From contig JAUXTU010000019.1 in assembly GCA_030679145.1 (NCBI GenBank), positions 1-35,682 of the forward strand: DNA of 35,682 bases. Direction: 5' to 3'. The translations under genes were made by a program, and so were the position numbers. This stretch comes from Bacteroidota bacterium (GTDB lineage Bacteria; Bacteroidota; Ignavibacteria; UBA10030; UBA8401). Under the pieces are notes generated by a model. The model saw only the letters and a program-made list of their open reading frames with translations, made no database searches and was not told the origin of the DNA. Each line of letters starts with the position of its first letter. Positions within the stretch are counted from its first letter, which is position 1. This document shows, piece by piece, positions 17,903 through 35,682 of the stretch.

Positions 17903-17925
17903 GTAGGACGGAGCGATGCTCCGTC
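17903..17925 (+). repeat. Left REP element
   Basis: GTAG (17903-17906) directly followed by the perfect hairpin GACGGAGC-GAT-GCTCCGTC (17907-17925). GTAG next to a stem-loop is the hallmark of REP sequences. T-rich sequence after it (TTGTTATT) means it could also work as a terminator for the histidine kinase gene. Confidence 0.8.
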
Positions 17926-17928
17926 TTG

Positions 17929-18570
17929 TTATTCTATGGTATACTTGCAAAAGGTAAATGGCCAATCCTTTACATCAGAAACAAGACCTGCTTTAACAGG
18001 ATTATAGGCAACATAATTTATTACCTCCTCAAACTCTTTTTCATTCCTTATTACACGATCGTAATTTTCTGATTGCCAGAATTGACCATCACGCTGCAAT
18101 ATTATATTTGATTGTATTGCAGTATAGCTTTTCAAGGATTGTAACACTTTCGTAAGATATTTTGTAGTTGAGTTAGCAGCATTATTGTGTTTTTCTAAAA
18201 TTTCAATTACTAAATGGACATGATTTGGCATAATACAAAAACAAATCAGATCATATTTTATGTTGGCTCGAAAGTGAATTGCATCAGCAACAACTTTTGC
18301 AACTCTACTGTCGTTTAACCAATTATCATTTGATTTTTGATTATCCAAAAATCCATCAAATTCTAGAAAATATCTTCGGTAAAACTCTTCTGGAAGTTTC
18401 TTAATTGATGGATCAGTCTTTTTATATTCTGCAAGTGCCAGTTCAGAATCGTATTCATTTCTCAATTTATCAATAATCCAAACTGGCAAAGAATTGACAA
18501 GCCTGAATGTAACAAAAAATATTGCCTCACTCGGAAGAAAATGTGGAAGATGTCTTCGATAGTATTCCAT
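17929..18570 (-). CDS. REP-associated tyrosine transposase (RAYT), Y1/HUH family
   Basis: 213 aa, related to IS200/IS605 TnpA. The N-terminus YYRRHLPHFLPSEAIFFVTF is the typical RAYT start. The HUH motif is FCIMPNHVHLVIE (His117 and His119), and the catalytic tyrosine is Tyr186 in INYVAYNPVKAGLV. FWQSENYDRVIRNEKEFEE matches the conserved family stretch before it. The length fits intact members, and no frameshift is seen, so it could be active. It is a domesticated-type transposase: such proteins move or maintain REP sequences rather than a classical IS. The gene starts 17 bp from the right REP and ends 3 bp from the left REP, in an otherwise tight convergent gap. Confidence 0.93.
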   Translation of the reverse strand: MEYYRRHLPHFLPSEAIFFVTFRLVNSLPVWIIDKLRNEYDSELALAEYKKTDPSIKKLPEEFYRRYFLEFDGFLDNQKSNDNWLNDSRVAKVVADAIHFRANIKYDLICFCIMPNHVHLVIEILEKHNNAANSTTKYLTKVLQSLKSYTAIQSNIILQRDGQFWQSENYDRVIRNEKEFEEVINYVAYNPVKAGLVSDVKDWPFTFCKYTIE

Positions 18571-18587: not shown

Positions 18588-18610
18588 GTCGAAGCATCGC
18601 TTCGACTTAC
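18588..18610 (-). repeat. Right REP element, inverted
   Basis: On the minus strand GTAA (18610-18607) is followed by the perfect hairpin GTCGAAGC-GAT-GCTTCGAC (18606-18588). Compared with the left REP it differs at two stem pairs, each changed on both sides so that pairing is kept. The GTAA supplies the TAA stop of the minus-strand gene at 18607-19098. Confidence 0.8.
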
Positions 18611-26830: not shown

Positions 26831-28348
26831 TCATTTAAGCAATATCATTTTTTTAAATACCGCTTTATCACCGCTTTGCAATCTTGCAAAGTATATTCCC
26901 GAAGAATGTTTTGCTCCCTTGAATGTTGTAGAATAACTTCCCGCTTCTTTTACTCCGTTGACCAATGCTGCTACTTCTCTTCCAATTGCATCATATACTT
27001 TAAGAGAAACATTACTCTTCACCGGTATCTGATAACTGATCGTCGTAGAGGGATTAAATGGGTTGGGATAATTCTGCATCAGCGCAAACTCTTTTAACAT
27101 TGTTCCAATTGTGACTTCAACTTCTTGGGTGTATGAGAATTTCCCGTCACGGTCGATCTGTTTTAGTCGGTACGAATACTTTCCTGTAGAGAGATTTTTA
27201 TCGGTATATGAATATTCTTTTGGTGCGTTCGTTGTTCCACTTCCTTCAACAAAGCCAACACTCGACCACTCATGCTGAGCGACCGAGCTGTTCTTTGGCG
27301 AGGGAGTCGAAGCATCCTTCGACGCGCTCATTTCATTCGCTTGCTCAGGATGACCAATGTATTTTCGCTCCACTTCAAACCCATAATTATTTGTTTCCGT
27401 TGCTGTTTTCCATGTTAGTGTTGCAGCATTGTCCATTGCGGATACCGTGAATGCTGTCAGCTCCACCGGAAGTGCAGCTTCGTTCTCTGATACGAACCTA
27501 ATACCGGTAGGATGAGAAACAGTGATTGGAAGTGTTTCAACCGAATTGCCGGCCACCGTTGCTTTGCGAATGCGCGGAGTACTAATTTCAGTCCAGTACA
27601 CAAATCCTCCGGCTGTATCAACCGTTAGATAATTCGGCGTTGCCAGGCTGGATAGAATGACAACCTTGACGAATCCATTCAGAGGGCTCCGGCTGATCGT
27701 ATTGGCATTCGCTTCAGTCCAATATATGTTCCCTCCACTATGATCCACAGCGAGTCCCACCGGACCGTTAAGCCCGCTTACGATAATCTGCGGAGCTGCA
27801 CTGTCATCGAGATCAATACGCTTGATCGTTCCCTCAGTGAATTCTGTCCAGTATAAATGCCGTGTAGCAGCGTCAAGTGCCAGAGCGCGGGGATTTCCTG
27901 TGATACTGTCTAACACGAGAACAGTTTCATTACCTGTTCCATTGAGATGCATACGATTGATTTTTGGTTTCGTCTGCAGATTGGATGTTGCATAATAAAT
28001 CCAGTTGCTGTCTATATCAACGGCGACTCCGCGTACAACAGAAGTGTTGGAAAGTAATTGTGAGGCTGCAGCGAAGCTGGTATCTGTATCATAAATACTT
28101 CCATCAGAGAATTTCAGCTCTGTCCAGAGAATTTTACTGTCTGAAGTAGAATAGGTCAGTGCTTCCGGCAGAGATGATCCGATCAACGGCGTTGTCTGGA
28201 TATTCGATCCATCAACAGCGGATTTTCCGATTACCGGAGAAGAAAATGAAGCATCCAACCAGTACAACGTTTGAGCCTTAAGAGGAAATACAAATAAAAT
28301 AAAGCCGAATAATGTCGAAAAAAAGAAATATTTTTTCTGAAAGTTCAT
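26831..28348 (-). CDS. Type IX secreted YWTD beta-propeller protein with FN3-like and sorting domains
   Basis: 505 aa from ATG 28348 (AAAGGA upstream); the longer frame to 28414 would overlap the preceding gene. Signal peptide MNFQKKYFFFSTLFGFILFV...KAQ. Residues about 28-290 contain LDL-receptor class B (YWTD) units: LYWLD, WIYYATS, HLYWTEFTEGTIKRIDL, NIYWTEANANTISRSPL, FVYWTEISTPRIRK, a six-bladed propeller. Residues 295-415 are an FN3-like domain (ALPVELTAFTVSA ... YSYTDKNLSTGKYSYRLKQI). The last 80 residues are the type IX sorting domain (MQNYPNPFNPSTTISYQIPV ... GIYFARLQSGDKAVFKKMIL). A run of about 34 residues between VERK and VGFVEGSG comes from a palindromic DNA insertion. Likely a secreted, cell-surface anchored protein; the ligand is unknown. 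It follows the tail-collar gene by 34 bp. Confidence 0.88.
   Translation of the reverse strand: MNFQKKYFFFSTLFGFILFVFPLKAQTLYWLDASFSSPVIGKSAVDGSNIQTTPLIGSSLPEALTYSTSDSKILWTELKFSDGSIYDTDTSFAAASQLLSNTSVVRGVAVDIDSNWIYYATSNLQTKPKINRMHLNGTGNETVLVLDSITGNPRALALDAATRHLYWTEFTEGTIKRIDLDDSAAPQIIVSGLNGPVGLAVDHSGGNIYWTEANANTISRSPLNGFVKVVILSSLATPNYLTVDTAGGFVYWTEISTPRIRKATVAGNSVETLPITVSHPTGIRFVSENEAALPVELTAFTVSAMDNAATLTWKTATETNNYGFEVERKYIGHPEQANEMSASKDASTPSPKNSSVAQHEWSSVGFVEGSGTTNAPKEYSYTDKNLSTGKYSYRLKQIDRDGKFSYTQEVEVTIGTMLKEFALMQNYPNPFNPSTTISYQIPVKSNVSLKVYDAIGREVAALVNGVKEAGSYSTTFKGAKHSSGIYFARLQSGDKAVFKKMILLK
27271..27355. repeat. REP-like palindrome inserted in frame in the YWTD protein gene
   Basis: Outer arms TCATGCTGAGC (27271-27281) and GCTCAGGATGA (27344-27354) are reverse complements with one mismatch. 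Inside is a perfect hairpin GTCGAAG-CATC-CTTCGAC (27307-27324), which matches the core of the right REP beside the RAYT (GTCGAAGC-ATC-GCTTCGAC). The insertion keeps the reading frame open, adding about 23 residues relative to a paralogue (29067-31724). Confidence 0.75.
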
Positions 28349-29066: not shown

Positions 29067-31724
29067 CTACTTGATCAACATCATCTTCTTCATTTGAACT
29101 TTGTCACCGTTTTGTAATTTCGCAAAATAAATTCCGCTGGAAAGATTCTTCGCGTCAAATGCTCTCTGATGATATTCTCCCGCTTCTGCAATACCATCGA
29201 ACAACGTCGCAACTTCCTGTCCGATTGCGTTGAATATTTTCAGCATTGCTTGACCAGTGACAGGAACGGTGAACTCGATGTTCGTTGTTGGATTAAATGG
29301 ATTAGGATAATTCTGTGCAAGTTCAAATACATTTGGTGCTACTCCCATCTTCACTTCTACCGTGCGGGAAAATGTGTACTGTCCGTTCCGGTCGATCTGT
29401 TTTAACCGATACGCAAATACGCCGCTACCGACATTCCTGTCGCTATATGAATATTGCCGTGCCAATTGTGATGTACCGTTTCCTTCAACAAATCCTACTC
29501 GTTGGAAATTACTTCCGTCTGTGTCCATCGATCTTCGTTCGATGTCGTATCCGAAGTTGTTCGTTTCCGTTGCCACACTCCATGCGATATTGGCATTACG
29601 ACGGTTCGGTGATACAACAAATGATGACAACTCTACTGAAAGTGCTGTCTCATTCAACTCATTGCTTGGTGTTCCGAGATTACCATGCACATCGATTGCT
29701 GCGATACGATAGTAGTATGATGTACCGTTTGTACCTGATGGATCATTATATGTTGTGTCGATTGTAGTGCTCAACTGTGTTCCTGAACCGATCATAAATC
29801 CTGCAGTGGTTGAACGGTAGATTCGGTACTCCATCAAGTCTCCGTCAACTCTGTTCTTGCTCCACTTTAATAATATCCCTCCGCCATTCACCGAGATCAT
29901 TGCACTACCAACTCCTATGGGAGGAATATTATCCACCGAATAGCCGCTGTCTTCAGCAGACAGAATGAAGAGATTTGGATCACTCGTATGGGCTGTAACA
30001 AGATATCTGTATTGGTATGTGCTCGTCGAAGTAGAATCTGTCAATGTCTGAACTACAACGTTATACGTTGGTGACTGAACCGCGGGAACAGTTGTAAAAA
30101 AATCATACAATGTTCCAAGTGTATCGTTCATGGTCTTTGCAAGAGTGACCGAAGAACGTAATGAAGCTACACTACCGGGTGGAATTCTTCTCCAAAGACC
30201 ATAGTACGTTATTTGCCATGTATCAGATAAAGTATCAAGTGCACTCTTGTTCCACTTCAGTCTGATTTTCCCTCCCTGATCTGATGGTATATCCGCTATT
30301 GATGATATCGATGGTTCGACTATACCTAAAAATCTATACCTGTCAACCCTTTGTGCGTAGATGTCATAATTCGTTCCATTACGAAAATCTATCCATGTGA
30401 TGATCGCCCCCCCAAAACCATCACTGACTATTGTTGAATATTGTTGAGAACCTGTTGCAGTCGAAACTGGCTCGCCATTTGCCTTCCATTGCACAGTTCC
30501 GGCAGTATTAATTCTTTGTGTGTAGATGTCATAATTCGTTCCACTGCGAAAATCAGTCCACGTAATAATAGCTCCACCAGAACCGTCACTTATTATTGCT
30601 GGATAGAATTGTTCACCAGTCGTGGTTGAAATGGCAACACCATTAGCTGCCCACAGTACTACACCGGAGACGCTGATCTTTTGTGCATAGATGTCATAAC
30701 TCGTACCACTTCGATAATCAGTCCACGTAATAATTGCTCCCCCTGATCCATCACTGACTAGTGTTGGATTGGTTTGACCATCCGTTGCGTTTGAAATAAC
30801 AACTCCATCTGCTGTCCATTGCACGGCACCAGAAGAATTGATCTTCTGTGCGTAGATGTCATTATTTATTCCACTACGTAAATCATTCCATGTAATGATC
30901 GCTCCACCCGATCCATCACTCACTATTCTTGAATTGTTTTGATCATAATACGCATTTGAAATAACAACTCCATCTGCAGTCCACTGCACTATTCCTGCGG
31001 CATTGATCCTCTGTACGTAGATGTCACCATCCGTCCCGCTCCGAACATCTTGCCACGTGATGATTGCACCACCTGATCCATCAATAGCTATTGTTGGAAG
31101 GTATTGATCATTTGTTGCATTTGAAATAACAACTCCATCTGCTGTCCATTGAACAGCACCTGATGCATTAATCCTCTGTGTGTAGATGTCATAATACGTT
31201 CCACCACGAATATCAGCCCACGTAATAATTGCTCCCCCTGATCCATCGCTGACTATTGTTGGATTCGTTTGATCACTAGCCGCAGTTGAGATAGCAATGC
31301 CATTTGTTGCCCATTGCACGACTCCGAAGGCATTGATCTTCTGTGCATAGATGTCCAAATTTCCACTGCGGGCATCATTCCACGTTATAATCGCTCCGCC
31401 AGATCCATCGCTGACTATTGTTGGATACATTTGATCATTAGCCGGAGTAGAAATTGCAATTCCATCTGTTGTCCACTGTACTACACCGGAGACACTGATC
31501 TTTTGTACATAGATATCATAACTCGTTCCACTTCGAGAATCCTGCCATACAATAATTGCACCACCAGAACCGTCGCTTGCAATTGTGGAATTCGTTTGTT
31601 CGCCAGTAGCTGTTGAAATTACATTATTTATTGCTGGGTTGGTAGACCATTGCGCAGTAAGATTCGCGGTAATCATCAAAAAAAGAATGATATACTTTGT
31701 AGAATAATTAGTAGAAAATCTCAT
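29067..31724 (-). CDS. Type IX secreted protein with eight about 53-aa repeats
   Basis: 885 aa. Signal peptide MRFSTNYSTKYIILFLMITA...TAQ. Residues about 25-460 hold eight tandem units built on PTIVSDGSGGAIITW-D-RSG followed by DIYAQKINASGVVQW and TADGVAIST. The spacing of about 53 residues with paired beta strands suggests blades of a propeller-like or beta-roll array; the number eight fits one propeller, but this is inference. Then come two FN3-like domains (about 470-700; GGGILLKWSKNRVDGDLMEY, SYYYRIAAIDVHGNLG) and a further FN3-like stretch (VELSSFVVSPNRRNANIAWS). The C-terminal type IX sorting domain is LAQNYPNPFNPTTNIEFTVP ... SSGIYFAKLQNGDKVQMKKM. No enzyme motif is visible; an adhesin or surface-structural role is likely. 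A TTGACA/TATGTT promoter lies upstream. Confidence 0.85.
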   Translation of the reverse strand: MRFSTNYSTKYIILFLMITANLTAQWSTNPAINNVISTATGEQTNSTIASDGSGGAIIVWQDSRSGTSYDIYVQKISVSGVVQWTTDGIAISTPANDQMYPTIVSDGSGGAIITWNDARSGNLDIYAQKINAFGVVQWATNGIAISTAASDQTNPTIVSDGSGGAIITWADIRGGTYYDIYTQRINASGAVQWTADGVVISNATNDQYLPTIAIDGSGGAIITWQDVRSGTDGDIYVQRINAAGIVQWTADGVVISNAYYDQNNSRIVSDGSGGAIITWNDLRSGINNDIYAQKINSSGAVQWTADGVVISNATDGQTNPTLVSDGSGGAIITWTDYRSGTSYDIYAQKISVSGVVLWAANGVAISTTTGEQFYPAIISDGSGGAIITWTDFRSGTNYDIYTQRINTAGTVQWKANGEPVSTATGSQQYSTIVSDGFGGAIITWIDFRNGTNYDIYAQRVDRYRFLGIVEPSISSIADIPSDQGGKIRLKWNKSALDTLSDTWQITYYGLWRRIPPGSVASLRSSVTLAKTMNDTLGTLYDFFTTVPAVQSPTYNVVVQTLTDSTSTSTYQYRYLVTAHTSDPNLFILSAEDSGYSVDNIPPIGVGSAMISVNGGGILLKWSKNRVDGDLMEYRIYRSTTAGFMIGSGTQLSTTIDTTYNDPSGTNGTSYYYRIAAIDVHGNLGTPSNELNETALSVELSSFVVSPNRRNANIAWSVATETNNFGYDIERRSMDTDGSNFQRVGFVEGNGTSQLARQYSYSDRNVGSGVFAYRLKQIDRNGQYTFSRTVEVKMGVAPNVFELAQNYPNPFNPTTNIEFTVPVTGQAMLKIFNAIGQEVATLFDGIAEAGEYHQRAFDAKNLSSGIYFAKLQNGDKVQMKKMMLIK
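30340..31640 (-). repeat. Tandem coding repeats of about 160 bp (8 units) in the secreted protein
   Basis: Eight units of roughly 156-165 bp encode the SDGSGGAIITW motif; their conserved blocks lie near 31560, 31390, 31222, 31060, 30900, 30739, 30580 and 30415. They are similar at DNA level to the array in 34710-35682. Not a CRISPR: units are coding throughout with no spacers. Confidence 0.85.
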
Positions 31725-33444: not shown

Positions 33445-35682
33445 CTACCGTAGCAGCGATAACTTCTTTATCTGTGATTTCCCATCCGATATGAGTCGAG
33501 CAAAATATATACCGCTGGAAAGATCCTTCGCGTTGAATGTTACTTGATGATATTTTCCCGCTTCTGCAATTCCGTCAAATAACGTTGCAACTTCCTGACC
33601 GATTGAATTGAATACTTTCAATGTTGCCAATCCATTTGCGGGAATAGTGAACTCAATATTCGTTGTAGGATTAAATGGATTCGGATAATTCTGTGCGAGC
33701 TCGAATACATTTGGTGCAACTCCCATCACTACTTCTACTGAGCGGGAAAATGTGTACTGTCCGTTTCGATCGATCTGTTTCAAACGGTATGAAAATATTC
33801 CGCTGCCAACATTCTTGTCGCTGTATGAATATTTCCGCGCTGTTTGTGATGTACCGCTTCCTTCAACAAATCCTGCTTTGACCCACGCCAGGTGGGATCC
33901 ACCTTCAAGGTGGAGTCCACCTGCAGCACGGCGTTCGATCTCATATCCAAAATTGTTCGTTTCAGTTGCTACGCTCCAAGCTATGTTCGCGTTGCGACGG
34001 TTCGCTGATACAGCAAACGATGTCAATTCTAATGAGAGCGCCGTTTCGTTCAGCTCACTGCTCGGCGATCCAAGATTTCCGTGAACATCAATCGCTGCAA
34101 TACGATAATAGTATGCGGTTCCGTTCGTACCGGAAGGATCATTATATGTTGTATCGGTTGTAGTGCTCAACTGTGTTCCGCTACCAACGGCAAATCCAGC
34201 AGTGGTTGAACGGTAGATTCTGTATTCCATTAGATCCTTATCAGCTCTGTTCTTCTCCCACTGTAATAGAATTCCACCGCCGTTGGAGTATATCCTTGCA
34301 TTGCCAACACCGACCGGTGGAACATTGTCCACTGAATAGCCGCTGTCGATGTTGGAATACCACATTTTTGTGGAATCACTATTCTTTGCTATCACCTGAA
34401 AATAATACATTGGTTTTCCCTGTAAACCGGAATCGGCATACGTTGGTATCACCGTCGTATATCCTTCAAGCCAATTTGCCGGAATTGATCCCGCTACCTG
34501 CCAATAAATACCGCTCCCTTGAGATTCTGAATTTTTCCCCAATATGCCGGTTGTTTTTGCTCCAAGTAAAATTGTGTACGATTTTATTGTCTGGTATGCT
34601 TCAGCATCAAGATATGATGGATCCCAGAAAAGGCGCAGTCTGCTTCCTTGATCGTTTGCAATATCTTTTGCCGCTACCAATTTTGGTCCGGCTTGACCAT
34701 AGAATCCATATCGGTCGATCTTCTGTGCATAAATGTCGTAATACGTTCCACTGCGATAATCTTGCCACGTAATTATTGCTCCGCCAGAACCATCACTGAC
34801 AATTGTTGGAGAAGATTGATCACTCGACGCGGTTGAAATAGCAACACCATCTGCTGTCCACTGAACAACTCCCGAAGCATTGATCTTCTGTGCATAAATG
34901 TCGTTCGTTCCACTGCGAGCATCTTGCCACGTGATAATTGCTCCCCCTGAACCATCACTGACAATTGTTGGAGAAGATTGAGTATTAGCCGCAGTTGAAA
35001 TAGCAACACCATTTGCAACCCACTGCACAACTCCGGCATTATTGATCTTTTGTGAAAAGATGTCATAATTCCCACTGCGAGCATCTTGCCACGTGATAAT
35101 TGCTCCCCCTGAACCATCACTGGCTATTGTTGGATAGTATTGATAATTCGCCGCAGTTGAAATGGCAACACCATTTGCTGTCCACTGCACAACTCCCGAA
35201 GCATTGATTCTCTGTGCATAGATGTCATCACTCGTTCCACTGCGATAATCCTGCCACGTAATAATTGCTCCTCCCGATCCATCACTGACTATTGTTGGAG
35301 AATATTGAAAATTAGCCGCAGTTGATATGGCAACACCATCTGTTATCCACTGCACAGCTCCGGATGAATTGATCTTCTGCGCGTAGATGTCCCAATTTGC
35401 TCCACTGCGACAATCCTGCCACGTAATAATTGCTCCCCCTGATCCATCACTGACTATTGTTGGATAGTATTGATTATTCGCCGCAGTTGAAATGGCAACA
35501 CCATCTGCTGTCCACTGTACAACTCCCGAAGCATTGATCTTCTGTGCATAAATGTCGTAAGACGTTACACTGCGACCATCATGCCACGTAATAATCGCTC
35601 CGCCAGAACCATCATTGACTATTGTTGGAGAATATTGATCATAAGCCGCGGTTGAAATAACAACACCATCTGCTGTCCACTG
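33445..35682 (-). CDS. Type IX secreted repeat protein, 5' end beyond the window
   Basis: The reading frame is open to the right edge (745 residues visible). The apparent start at 35355 is an internal GTG, since the same repeat continues beyond it in frame without a stop. Six repeat units are visible (about 54 aa each, PTIVSDGSGGAIITWQDYRS, DIYAQKINASGVVQWTADGV). Next come FN3-like domains (GGGILLQWEKNRADKDLMEY, YYYRIAAIDVHGNLGSPSSE, LELTSFAVSANRRNANIAWS) and the type IX sorting domain (LAQNYPNPFNPTTNIEFTIP ... SSGIYFARLISDGKSQIKKL). It is a close paralogue of the 29067-31724 gene in both halves. A GGTGG palindromic insert codes for AAGGLHLEGGSHLAWVKA between EIERR and GFVEG. Probably cotranscribed with the beta-helix gene downstream. 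Confidence 0.88.
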   Translation of the reverse strand, partial: QWTADGVVISTAAYDQYSPTIVNDGSGGAIITWHDGRSVTSYDIYAQKINASGVVQWTADGVAISTAANNQYYPTIVSDGSGGAIITWQDCRSGANWDIYAQKINSSGAVQWITDGVAISTAANFQYSPTIVSDGSGGAIITWQDYRSGTSDDIYAQRINASGVVQWTANGVAISTAANYQYYPTIASDGSGGAIITWQDARSGNYDIFSQKINNAGVVQWVANGVAISTAANTQSSPTIVSDGSGGAIITWQDARSGTNDIYAQKINASGVVQWTADGVAISTASSDQSSPTIVSDGSGGAIITWQDYRSGTYYDIYAQKIDRYGFYGQAGPKLVAAKDIANDQGSRLRLFWDPSYLDAEAYQTIKSYTILLGAKTTGILGKNSESQGSGIYWQVAGSIPANWLEGYTTVIPTYADSGLQGKPMYYFQVIAKNSDSTKMWYSNIDSGYSVDNVPPVGVGNARIYSNGGGILLQWEKNRADKDLMEYRIYRSTTAGFAVGSGTQLSTTTDTTYNDPSGTNGTAYYYRIAAIDVHGNLGSPSSELNETALSLELTSFAVSANRRNANIAWSVATETNNFGYEIERRAAGGLHLEGGSHLAWVKAGFVEGSGTSQTARKYSYSDKNVGSGIFSYRLKQIDRNGQYTFSRSVEVVMGVAPNVFELAQNYPNPFNPTTNIEFTIPANGLATLKVFNSIGQEVATLFDGIAEAGKYHQVTFNAKDLSSGIYFARLISDGKSQIKKLSLLR
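33890..33922. repeat. Double palindrome AGGTGG-N3-CCACCT inserted in frame
   Basis: AGGTGG-GAT-CCACCT (33890-33904) and AGGTGG-AGT-CCACCT (33908-33922) are two hairpins joined by TCA; CCACCTT-C-AAGGTGG in the centre is a third possible stem. It encodes GGLHLEGGSHL on the minus strand, at the linker where the YWTD protein gene carries its REP-like palindrome. Confidence 0.75.
34710..35682 (-). repeat. Tandem coding repeats of about 162 bp (6 units visible)
   Basis: Six units with the SDGSGGAIITW block are visible before the window edge; the array continues past it. Several units share stretches of identical sequence with each other, so copy number may vary between strains. Confidence 0.85.

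Follow-up and report, generated by a model that had tools for sequence, protein, structure and literature searches.

The palindrome at positions 27271 to 27355 of the analysed DNA is very probably one copy, turned into part of a secreted protein, of a non-autonomous dispersed palindromic repeat that is built as a doublet from two GTCAT..CTGAGC half-elements; the RAYT (REP-associated tyrosine transposase) encoded on the same stretch is not implicated. Sequence comparison established that the insert is homologous both to intergenic copies and to copies read in frame in unrelated proteins.

The window, which is the whole analysed stretch of 35,682 nucleotides, is contig C84 of its own genome, G000 (3.83 Mb in 123 contigs). 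G004 is a genome of the window's genus, L followed by a number denotes a fetched locus, and ORFs were taken from a greedy longest-ORF script, not from an annotation.

The host gene and its protein

The insert lies in a gene on the minus strand (26831 to 28348), which according to profile matches encodes a secreted protein of 505 amino acids comprising YWTD/Ldl_recept_b repeats (78 bits), an FN3-like domain and a type IX sorting tail. The tail, a Por_Secre_tail profile match covering residues 427-502 (26843 to 27070, minus strand), scores 39.4 bits at a cut-off of 27, and TIGR04183 scores 40.6 bits at a cut-off of 23, so that the protein has the C-terminal sorting domain which characterizes type IX cargo. 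As read from the sequence, its N-terminus is hydrophobic and ends in KAQ.

At E 1e-30 the protein is matched in at least 49 of 80 genomes, its own genome counted, and nearly all of the matches listed run through the C-terminal half. A few of them extend back to residue 158 or 198 (40-41% identity), and one, from G075 of another family, covers the N-terminal part alone (41% identical). Because a close orthologue of the whole gene is not among the matches listed at this threshold, it is the paralogues that argue for an insertion into the host gene itself.

The FN3-like domain bearing the loop (27152 to 27463, minus strand; model strands E8-17 to E101-111) was assigned from a structure model and from Foldseek, many matches of which are FNIII domains; RbmA and the T9SS protein PorU are among the best, and the whole-model TM-scores are low. 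AlphaFold2 gave a mean pLDDT of 86.2 for the FN3-plus-tail segment (56 rows). The insert occupies approximately residues 44-72 of this model, between strands 33-44 and 74-80, and the pLDDT of the ten-residue blocks starting at residue 41 is 75, 58 (51-60) and 52 (61-70), with 95 before and 94 after. In the model the insert is a low-confidence loop which joins two beta strands of the FN3-like domain, and an exposed loop of such a kind is the place where inserts are most easily tolerated.

The in-frame insert

The insert, which is read on the minus strand, was delimited by its arms, fold, translation and alignment to a copy between genes described below (L158). Between its outer arms TCATGCTGAGC (27271-27281) and GCTCAGGATGA (27345-27355), 10 of the 11 positions are complementary. 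The core hairpin GTCGAAG-CATC-CTTCGAC (27306 to 27323; perfect 7-bp stem) is the junction of half-element 1, TCATGCTGAGCGACCGAGCTGTTCTTTGGCGAGGGAGTCGAAGCATC (27271 to 27316), and half-element 2, CATCCTTCGACGCGCTCATTTCATTCGCTTGCTCAGGATGA (27313 to 27355). A genome-wide pattern search indicates that this core is unique, GTCGAAGNNNNCTTCGAC having one exact site and the other four sites of GTCGAAGNATNCTTCGAC two mismatches each. GTAG is found on neither strand of 27260-27365. Stop codons are absent from three of the six reading frames of the insert, and the frame in use is predicted to yield GHPEQANEMSASKDASTPSPKNSSVAQH between FEVERKYI and EWSSVGFVEGSG without a frameshift; DASTPSPKNSSVAQHE is an example of a peptide that would be expected from such inserts.

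The host loop from ER to GFVEG comprises 36 residues, compared with 9-13 in short-loop paralogues, which amounts to about 23-27 extra residues. One such paralogue is the cargo gene at 29067 to 31724 (minus strand, identified by ORF and loop comparison), whose short loop RSMDTDGSNFQRV served as the comparison without insert. The earlier note had described a palindrome that is set in frame between VERK and VGFVEGSG of a type IX cargo gene and adds about 23 residues without a frameshift, and this description is borne out by the pairing of arms and core, the translation (...NNYGFEVERK / VGFVEGSG) and the loop lengths.

The strand folds across 27260-27365 with a z of -2.68, and three of 200 shuffles fold equally well. 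These three shuffles and the variable length of the loop among paralogues could also be expected of an ordinary hypervariable protein loop with a palindrome that arose by chance, an explanation which is barely credible in view of the homologous repeats between genes and of the same DNA in MutS.

Dispersed copies of the repeat family

Judged from the alignments, the insert represents one copy of a dispersed repeat made of two half-elements. The search inside and outside genes that the earlier note had proposed does bring up related copies between genes: words of the insert recur within the genome in dispersed GTCAT..CTGAGC units, which lie between ORFs at L002, L004, L009 and L010, the one at L004 being flanked by trigger-factor-like and clpP-like genes (named by eye). 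The CATTGCGAG units (L003, L005-L008; a shorter part in L011) share the word CGAGCYGTTCTTTGGCGA with the insert. Exact GTCATNCYGAGC units number 13 in the G000 sample, 10 of them outside ORFs of 100 residues, and seven in the G004 sample, two of them outside. Twelve of these 20 units are thus located outside and eight inside ORFs, the latter comprising six in cargo FN3 loops (one in G000, five in G004), one in MutS and one in an ORF of 369 residues. At L187:17960 (G000:C57) a GTCATTCTGAGCGA unit is found within a 369-residue ORF. Units of the type GTCATTGCGAG occur 23 times in the G000 sample (20 outside ORFs) and not at all in the G004 sample.

The insert is matched at E <=0.01 in 10 of 22 family genomes, its own one counted. 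A near full-length copy, L158 (G010:C16:7634-7730), lies between two ORFs and aligns to positions 9-93 of the query with 76% identity; it has the same layout of two oppositely oriented half-elements joined at the core, with a longer junction than in the window copy. Copies of half-element 1 which are 88-90% identical lie between ORFs in G010 (L167, L175, L181). For half-element 2, one form was found as 20 stretches in a collection of one genome per species, 18 of which are outside ORFs of at least 100 residues, and the hosts are Ignavibacteriales, other Bacteroidota, Omnitrophota, Holophagae and a Clostridia MAG. In this MAG (L335, JAGAAC010000036.1) the bases of half-element 2 are, across phyla, the same as in the window from ATCCTTCGACGC to the end.

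Half-element 1 is also present in FN3 loops of G004 (L157, L166, L174) and G007 (L159). That three paralogues of G004 and one of G007 hold the same half-element in the same loop, and that fillings of other kinds are near-identical among some of the G000 paralogues, would fit an arrival of the insert by recombination or gene conversion from an already filled cargo paralogue, with no fresh insertion. We regard this as a real possibility which falls somewhat short of an even chance, since the window copy has both half-elements, whereas one aligned G004 copy is without the middle and two others start later, and since no second full match to the insert was found within G000.

The RAYT and its hairpins

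The RAYT gene (17929 to 18570, minus strand) was recognized by NF047646 (88.9 bits, cut-off 80) and scores only 19.2 bits with Pfam Y1_Tnp (cut-off 23). Pattern searches identified a hairpin on each side of it, on the left GACGGAGCGATGCTCCGTC (17907 to 17925), which GTAG precedes, and on the right GTCGAAGCATCGCTTCGAC (18588 to 18606), which GTAA precedes on the minus strand. In the 3.83 Mb the hairpin GNCNNAGCGATGCTNNGNC occurs without mismatch only at these two RAYT flanks; no further mismatch-free copy of the hairpins GACGGAGCGATGCTCCGTC and GTCGAAGCGATGCTTCGAC is present in the genome, and one plausible copy with one mismatch is located at C55:1407. The genome contains five RAYT-family matches, two of them over the cut-off, and near four of the five (loci L225-L229) there are hairpins whose sequences all differ.

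The earlier note had equated the core of the insert with the right REP beside the RAYT and had suggested a link to that gene. This does not stand, as the right hairpin is one base longer and a different element, and a RAYT origin of the insert was rejected: the RAYT hairpin is confined to its flanks, and the insert belongs to the GTCAT..CTGAGC family. RAYTs have been put forward as the enzymes that move GTAG-tagged REPs (PMC3733652, excerpt), and the core is only one base off the right hairpin, so that the RAYT at 17929-18570 might have moved the insert palindrome as its REP; we consider this very unlikely. Apart from C55:1407 the hairpin is confined to two flanks, the insert is without a GTAG tag, and no GTCATNCTGAGC unit (at most one mismatch) is found in the fetched DNA, about 1.5 kb on each side, of the five RAYT-family matches. 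The link was dropped because two half-elements that belong to another family meet at the core. The insert thus shows neither GTAG at a hairpin end nor the same hairpin both flanking a RAYT and dispersed, which define GTAG-class REPs. No transposase for the insert was identified in this analysis.

Loops of the paralogous cargo proteins

A domain search yielded 24 matches in the genome; the host gene contributes two of these, as the insert splits it into two pieces. Regular expressions, which missed some domains, were used to delimit the loops, and the parsed lengths range from 9 to 36 residues. A stem search revealed a second in-frame palindrome of the window that is absent from the earlier note, RAAGGLHLEGGSHLAW (GGTGGACTCCACC-TTGAA-GGTGGATCCCACC; 33888 to 33924, minus strand). 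It is located in the same FN3 loop of a paralogous type IX cargo gene (33445 to 35682, minus strand, profile match), which is open at the window end. In the G003 homologue of this gene (L143) the palindrome at this position is built of different arms. The window also contains arrays of 162-165-bp coding repeats at 30350-31662 and 34718-35671, in two cargo genes (DGSGGAIITW..D.RSG..YDIY).

The palindromic fillings vary among the paralogues of G000 and its congeners. Besides the element of the insert they comprise GACCGTCACCTTGAAGGTGACGGTC (DRHLEGDGH), GAACCGTTCCCTTGAAGGGAACGGTTC and GGTGGACTCCACCTTGAAGGTGGATCCCACC, the last being the second insert of the window (33888-33924); further loop palindromes among the paralogues are CCCCTCCTTTGCAAGGAGGGG, GTTCGTCCCGATGTAATCGGGACGAAC and GTCATCCCGAGCGGAGACGAGGGATGAC. 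Palindromes of the types GGTGG.., GTTCCC.., CCCCTCC.. and ATCCCGAGC.. were found in loops alone within the fetched DNA, which gives no support to their dispersal. Direct-word fillings (CAGTCAGC-like, GGACAATTGACAAT-like and CAGAATTCAGAA-like) have some copies outside loops and presumably resemble known spacers. Non-palindromic word repeats (GTCAGCNCTCAGCANTCAG; AATGGACAATTGACAAT and look-alikes) fill the FN3 loop at L100, L102, L124, L126, L129, L131, L133 and L152, and the AATGGACAATTGACAAT-type repeat recurs around L138.

The second insert of the window and L143 are left out of the tests on loop length, folding and BLAST; the stem-density count leaves out L143 and includes the second insert. 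Folding is better than in controls from the same genes for a set of 36 representative long loops (mean z -1.65, Wilcoxon p 3.9e-5), of which 12 have a z below -2 and 10 beat every control. For 12 short loops no better folding than in same-gene controls was seen (p 0.43). Stem density was determined for 44 loops in samples of 767,560 bases of G000 and 581,503 bases of G004. Perfect stems of at least 10 bp occur five times in 2,472 loop bases, 69 times in 1,208,090 bases of other coding DNA and 146 times in 138,501 non-coding bases. They are approximately 35-fold denser in loops than in other coding DNA, with a Poisson p of 4e-7 that is too small since the loops share descent. BLAST of loop DNA against non-coding samples was null in three of four tests and weak in one (p 0.024 for G000 loops against G000 DNA, 0.92 for G000 against G004, 0.24 for G004 against G000 and 0.97 for G004 against G004), an outcome explained by the shortness of the exact matches (about 9-18 bases) and by fragments of cargo genes that remained in the databases.

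A second dispersed family in loops, spacers and other proteins

The GACCGTCACCTTNAAGGTGACGGTC family, which is the same as the GACCGTCACC family, was searched for with the pattern GACCGTCACCTTSAAGGTGACGGTC, allowing up to two mismatches, in 98 genomes of the order. At least 79 copies are present in at least 12 of these genomes, while a reversed-pattern control gave none. We examined 44 distinct copies, some of them chosen as already fetched and including all copies of G000 (9/9), G003 (8/8) and G004 (3/3). Thirty of the 44 lie outside ORFs of 80 residues, five in FN3 loops (L239, L241, L103, L127, L143) and nine in other ORFs. Six of these nine look like upstream DNA or doubtful ORFs, and three are clearly within proteins, namely a SpoU methylase of the window's own genome (L249), MutS (L235) and an MPG glycosylase (L234). 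The 20 copies of G000, G003 and G004 taken alone are distributed over spacers and genes as 12 outside ORFs, four in FN3 loops, one in SpoU, one in MutS and two in doubtful ORFs.

In the SpoU methylase (G000:C54:5714-6592) the in-frame palindrome adds 11 residues, which are missing from all 13 other orthologues among the 14 of 17 loci that could be parsed. The MPG-type DNA glycosylase of G010 has an in-frame DRHLEGDGHL palindrome and is a second DNA-repair gene beside MutS. The presence of a palindromic repeat in frame in unrelated proteins as well as outside genes is what defines elements of the RPE kind.

Across twelve copies or arm variants from loops, other proteins and spacers, paired changes keep the hairpin: both sides have changed in nine of 15 pairs, paired cells amount to 97.2%, and none of 500 shuffles reached this value. 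TTNAA-centred palindromes at one loop whose arms differ and yet pair to this extent, together with the different arms at the same place in homologous genes of G000 and G003, would also be compatible with immobile palindromes built in place by templated mutation, i.e. strand switching on near-palindromes. This explanation is improbable, as homologous copies were found, for the insert as well as for the GACCGTCACC family, in spacers and in unrelated genes.

Palindromes in MutS

MutS was matched in 21 of 22 family genomes (E 1e-60). An in-frame half-element in a domain III loop is found in 11 of the 21 proteins (G000-G007, G010, G013, G015) and is absent from the other 10, so that relatives do differ in carriage. 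The peptide D-P-S-T-R-S-S-K-N-D-S-L-A-Q-D-D and its variants compare to D-A-S-T-P-S-P-K-N-S-S-V-A-Q-H of the insert. The best-matching solved MutS, 7ou2_A, which we take to be the E. coli protein, has a gap at the insert point. MutS of G015 holds the full doublet, in the same layout as L340, a copy between genes. Elements of the RPE kind further require that homologues without the insert exist, and these are the 10 of 21 MutS proteins and 13 of the 14 parsed SpoU orthologues.

Other palindromes are located in the same MutS loop, namely CGTTCCCAAACGGAGTTTGGGAACG in G000 and G001 with a variant in G008, and AAGTTGGTCTCCA..TGGAGACCAACTT in G016. The MutS gene of the window's own genome (G000:C34:3641-6358; L287, L290; hairpin L204:4823) has two palindromic families in one domain III loop. 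Stems of at least 9 bp occur eight times in 1,737 MutS loop bases versus 13 times in 54,246 other MutS bases, the loop having been delimited after the inserts were seen. A second site, in a linker near the C-terminus, contains TTNAA-centred palindromes with differing arms in G003, G015 and G017 (L235, L272, L277).

Palindromic repeats might be directed to a few loops, the type IX cargo FN3 loop and the two MutS sites being landing sites where unrelated palindromes insert repeatedly in frame; such selfish DNA would diversify surface proteins and, because MutS restrains recombination between diverged repeats and is itself loaded, may ease its own spread. We consider such directed insertion unlikely. 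Under the explanation we favour, in which dispersed repeats become part of proteins, copies would land at many places, and those without stop codons in exposed loops would be kept by selection. Such permissive sites would be the type IX cargo FN3 loop and the two MutS sites, where unrelated palindromes would therefore pile up. Gene duplication and recombination among the cargo paralogues may then have spread filled loops.

Comparison with known systems

REP doublets (BIME/REPIN), which are associated with RAYTs, consist of two inverted units that form a larger palindrome. The insert resembles them as two inverted units making one larger palindrome; it differs in that it has no GTAG tag and that the five RAYT-family matches of the genome have no insert unit nearby.

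Rickettsia proteins contain in-frame palindromes, the RPEs (Ogata and others 2000, 2002; described in excerpts of PMC10969869 and PMC3733652). As in that description, palindromic repeats were found here in frame in unrelated proteins and outside genes too; compared by description only, the present case differs in belonging to another phylum and in having several unrelated palindrome families in the same loops. The earlier note regards in-frame palindromes as a feature known mainly from Rickettsia, a view that is outdated, since the excerpt of PMC3733652 describes REPs inside genes of O. terrae, Thauera, Xanthomonas and others, many of them in DNA-repair genes. The same excerpt argues that an insert which falls in a flexible linker or loop may be neutral, and it notes for recB that two species of Xanthomonas have different REPs at about the same site. 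The intragenic GTAG/CGTC REPs described there are like the present repeats in that singles and dimers lie within ORFs, add 20-30 residues and affect many DNA-repair genes, whereas Ignavibacteria and type IX cargo are not met in that part of the account.

The CGTC class of REPs is characterized in the excerpt by a CGTC, TGTC or CCTC tag, AT at the stem base, a stem of 8-9 bp, a short loop and a CCA tail (PMC3733652). The GTCAT start of many copies of the insert family recalls the CGTC/TGTC-tagged units. With respect to the other features of the class, the window copy has no CGTC end, the half-elements are longer and their stems imperfect. MITEs with ORFs, as far as they are covered by the excerpt of PMC10969869, are likewise short, without a transposase of their own, bounded by terminal inverted repeats and able to form in-frame fusions, but the terminal repeats of the insert measure only 11 bp, of which 10 pair.

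In-frame palindromes as a kind are already known from Rickettsia and other bacteria (excerpt of PMC3733652). A literature search by sequence strings retrieved no related paper, and as far as our searches of the open-access literature show, novelty lies in the occurrence in Ignavibacteria, in a host protein that is type IX cargo, and in the way unrelated palindromes accumulate at the same loops.

The findings add a lineage in which short palindromic repeats turn into protein, and they point to fixed loops in type IX cargo and in MutS as recurrent acceptors of different repeats. With and without the insert, the single-copy MutS genes of sister species form natural test pairs for the effects of inserts, and the same pairs are useful for studying how palindromes insert when no transposase is known.
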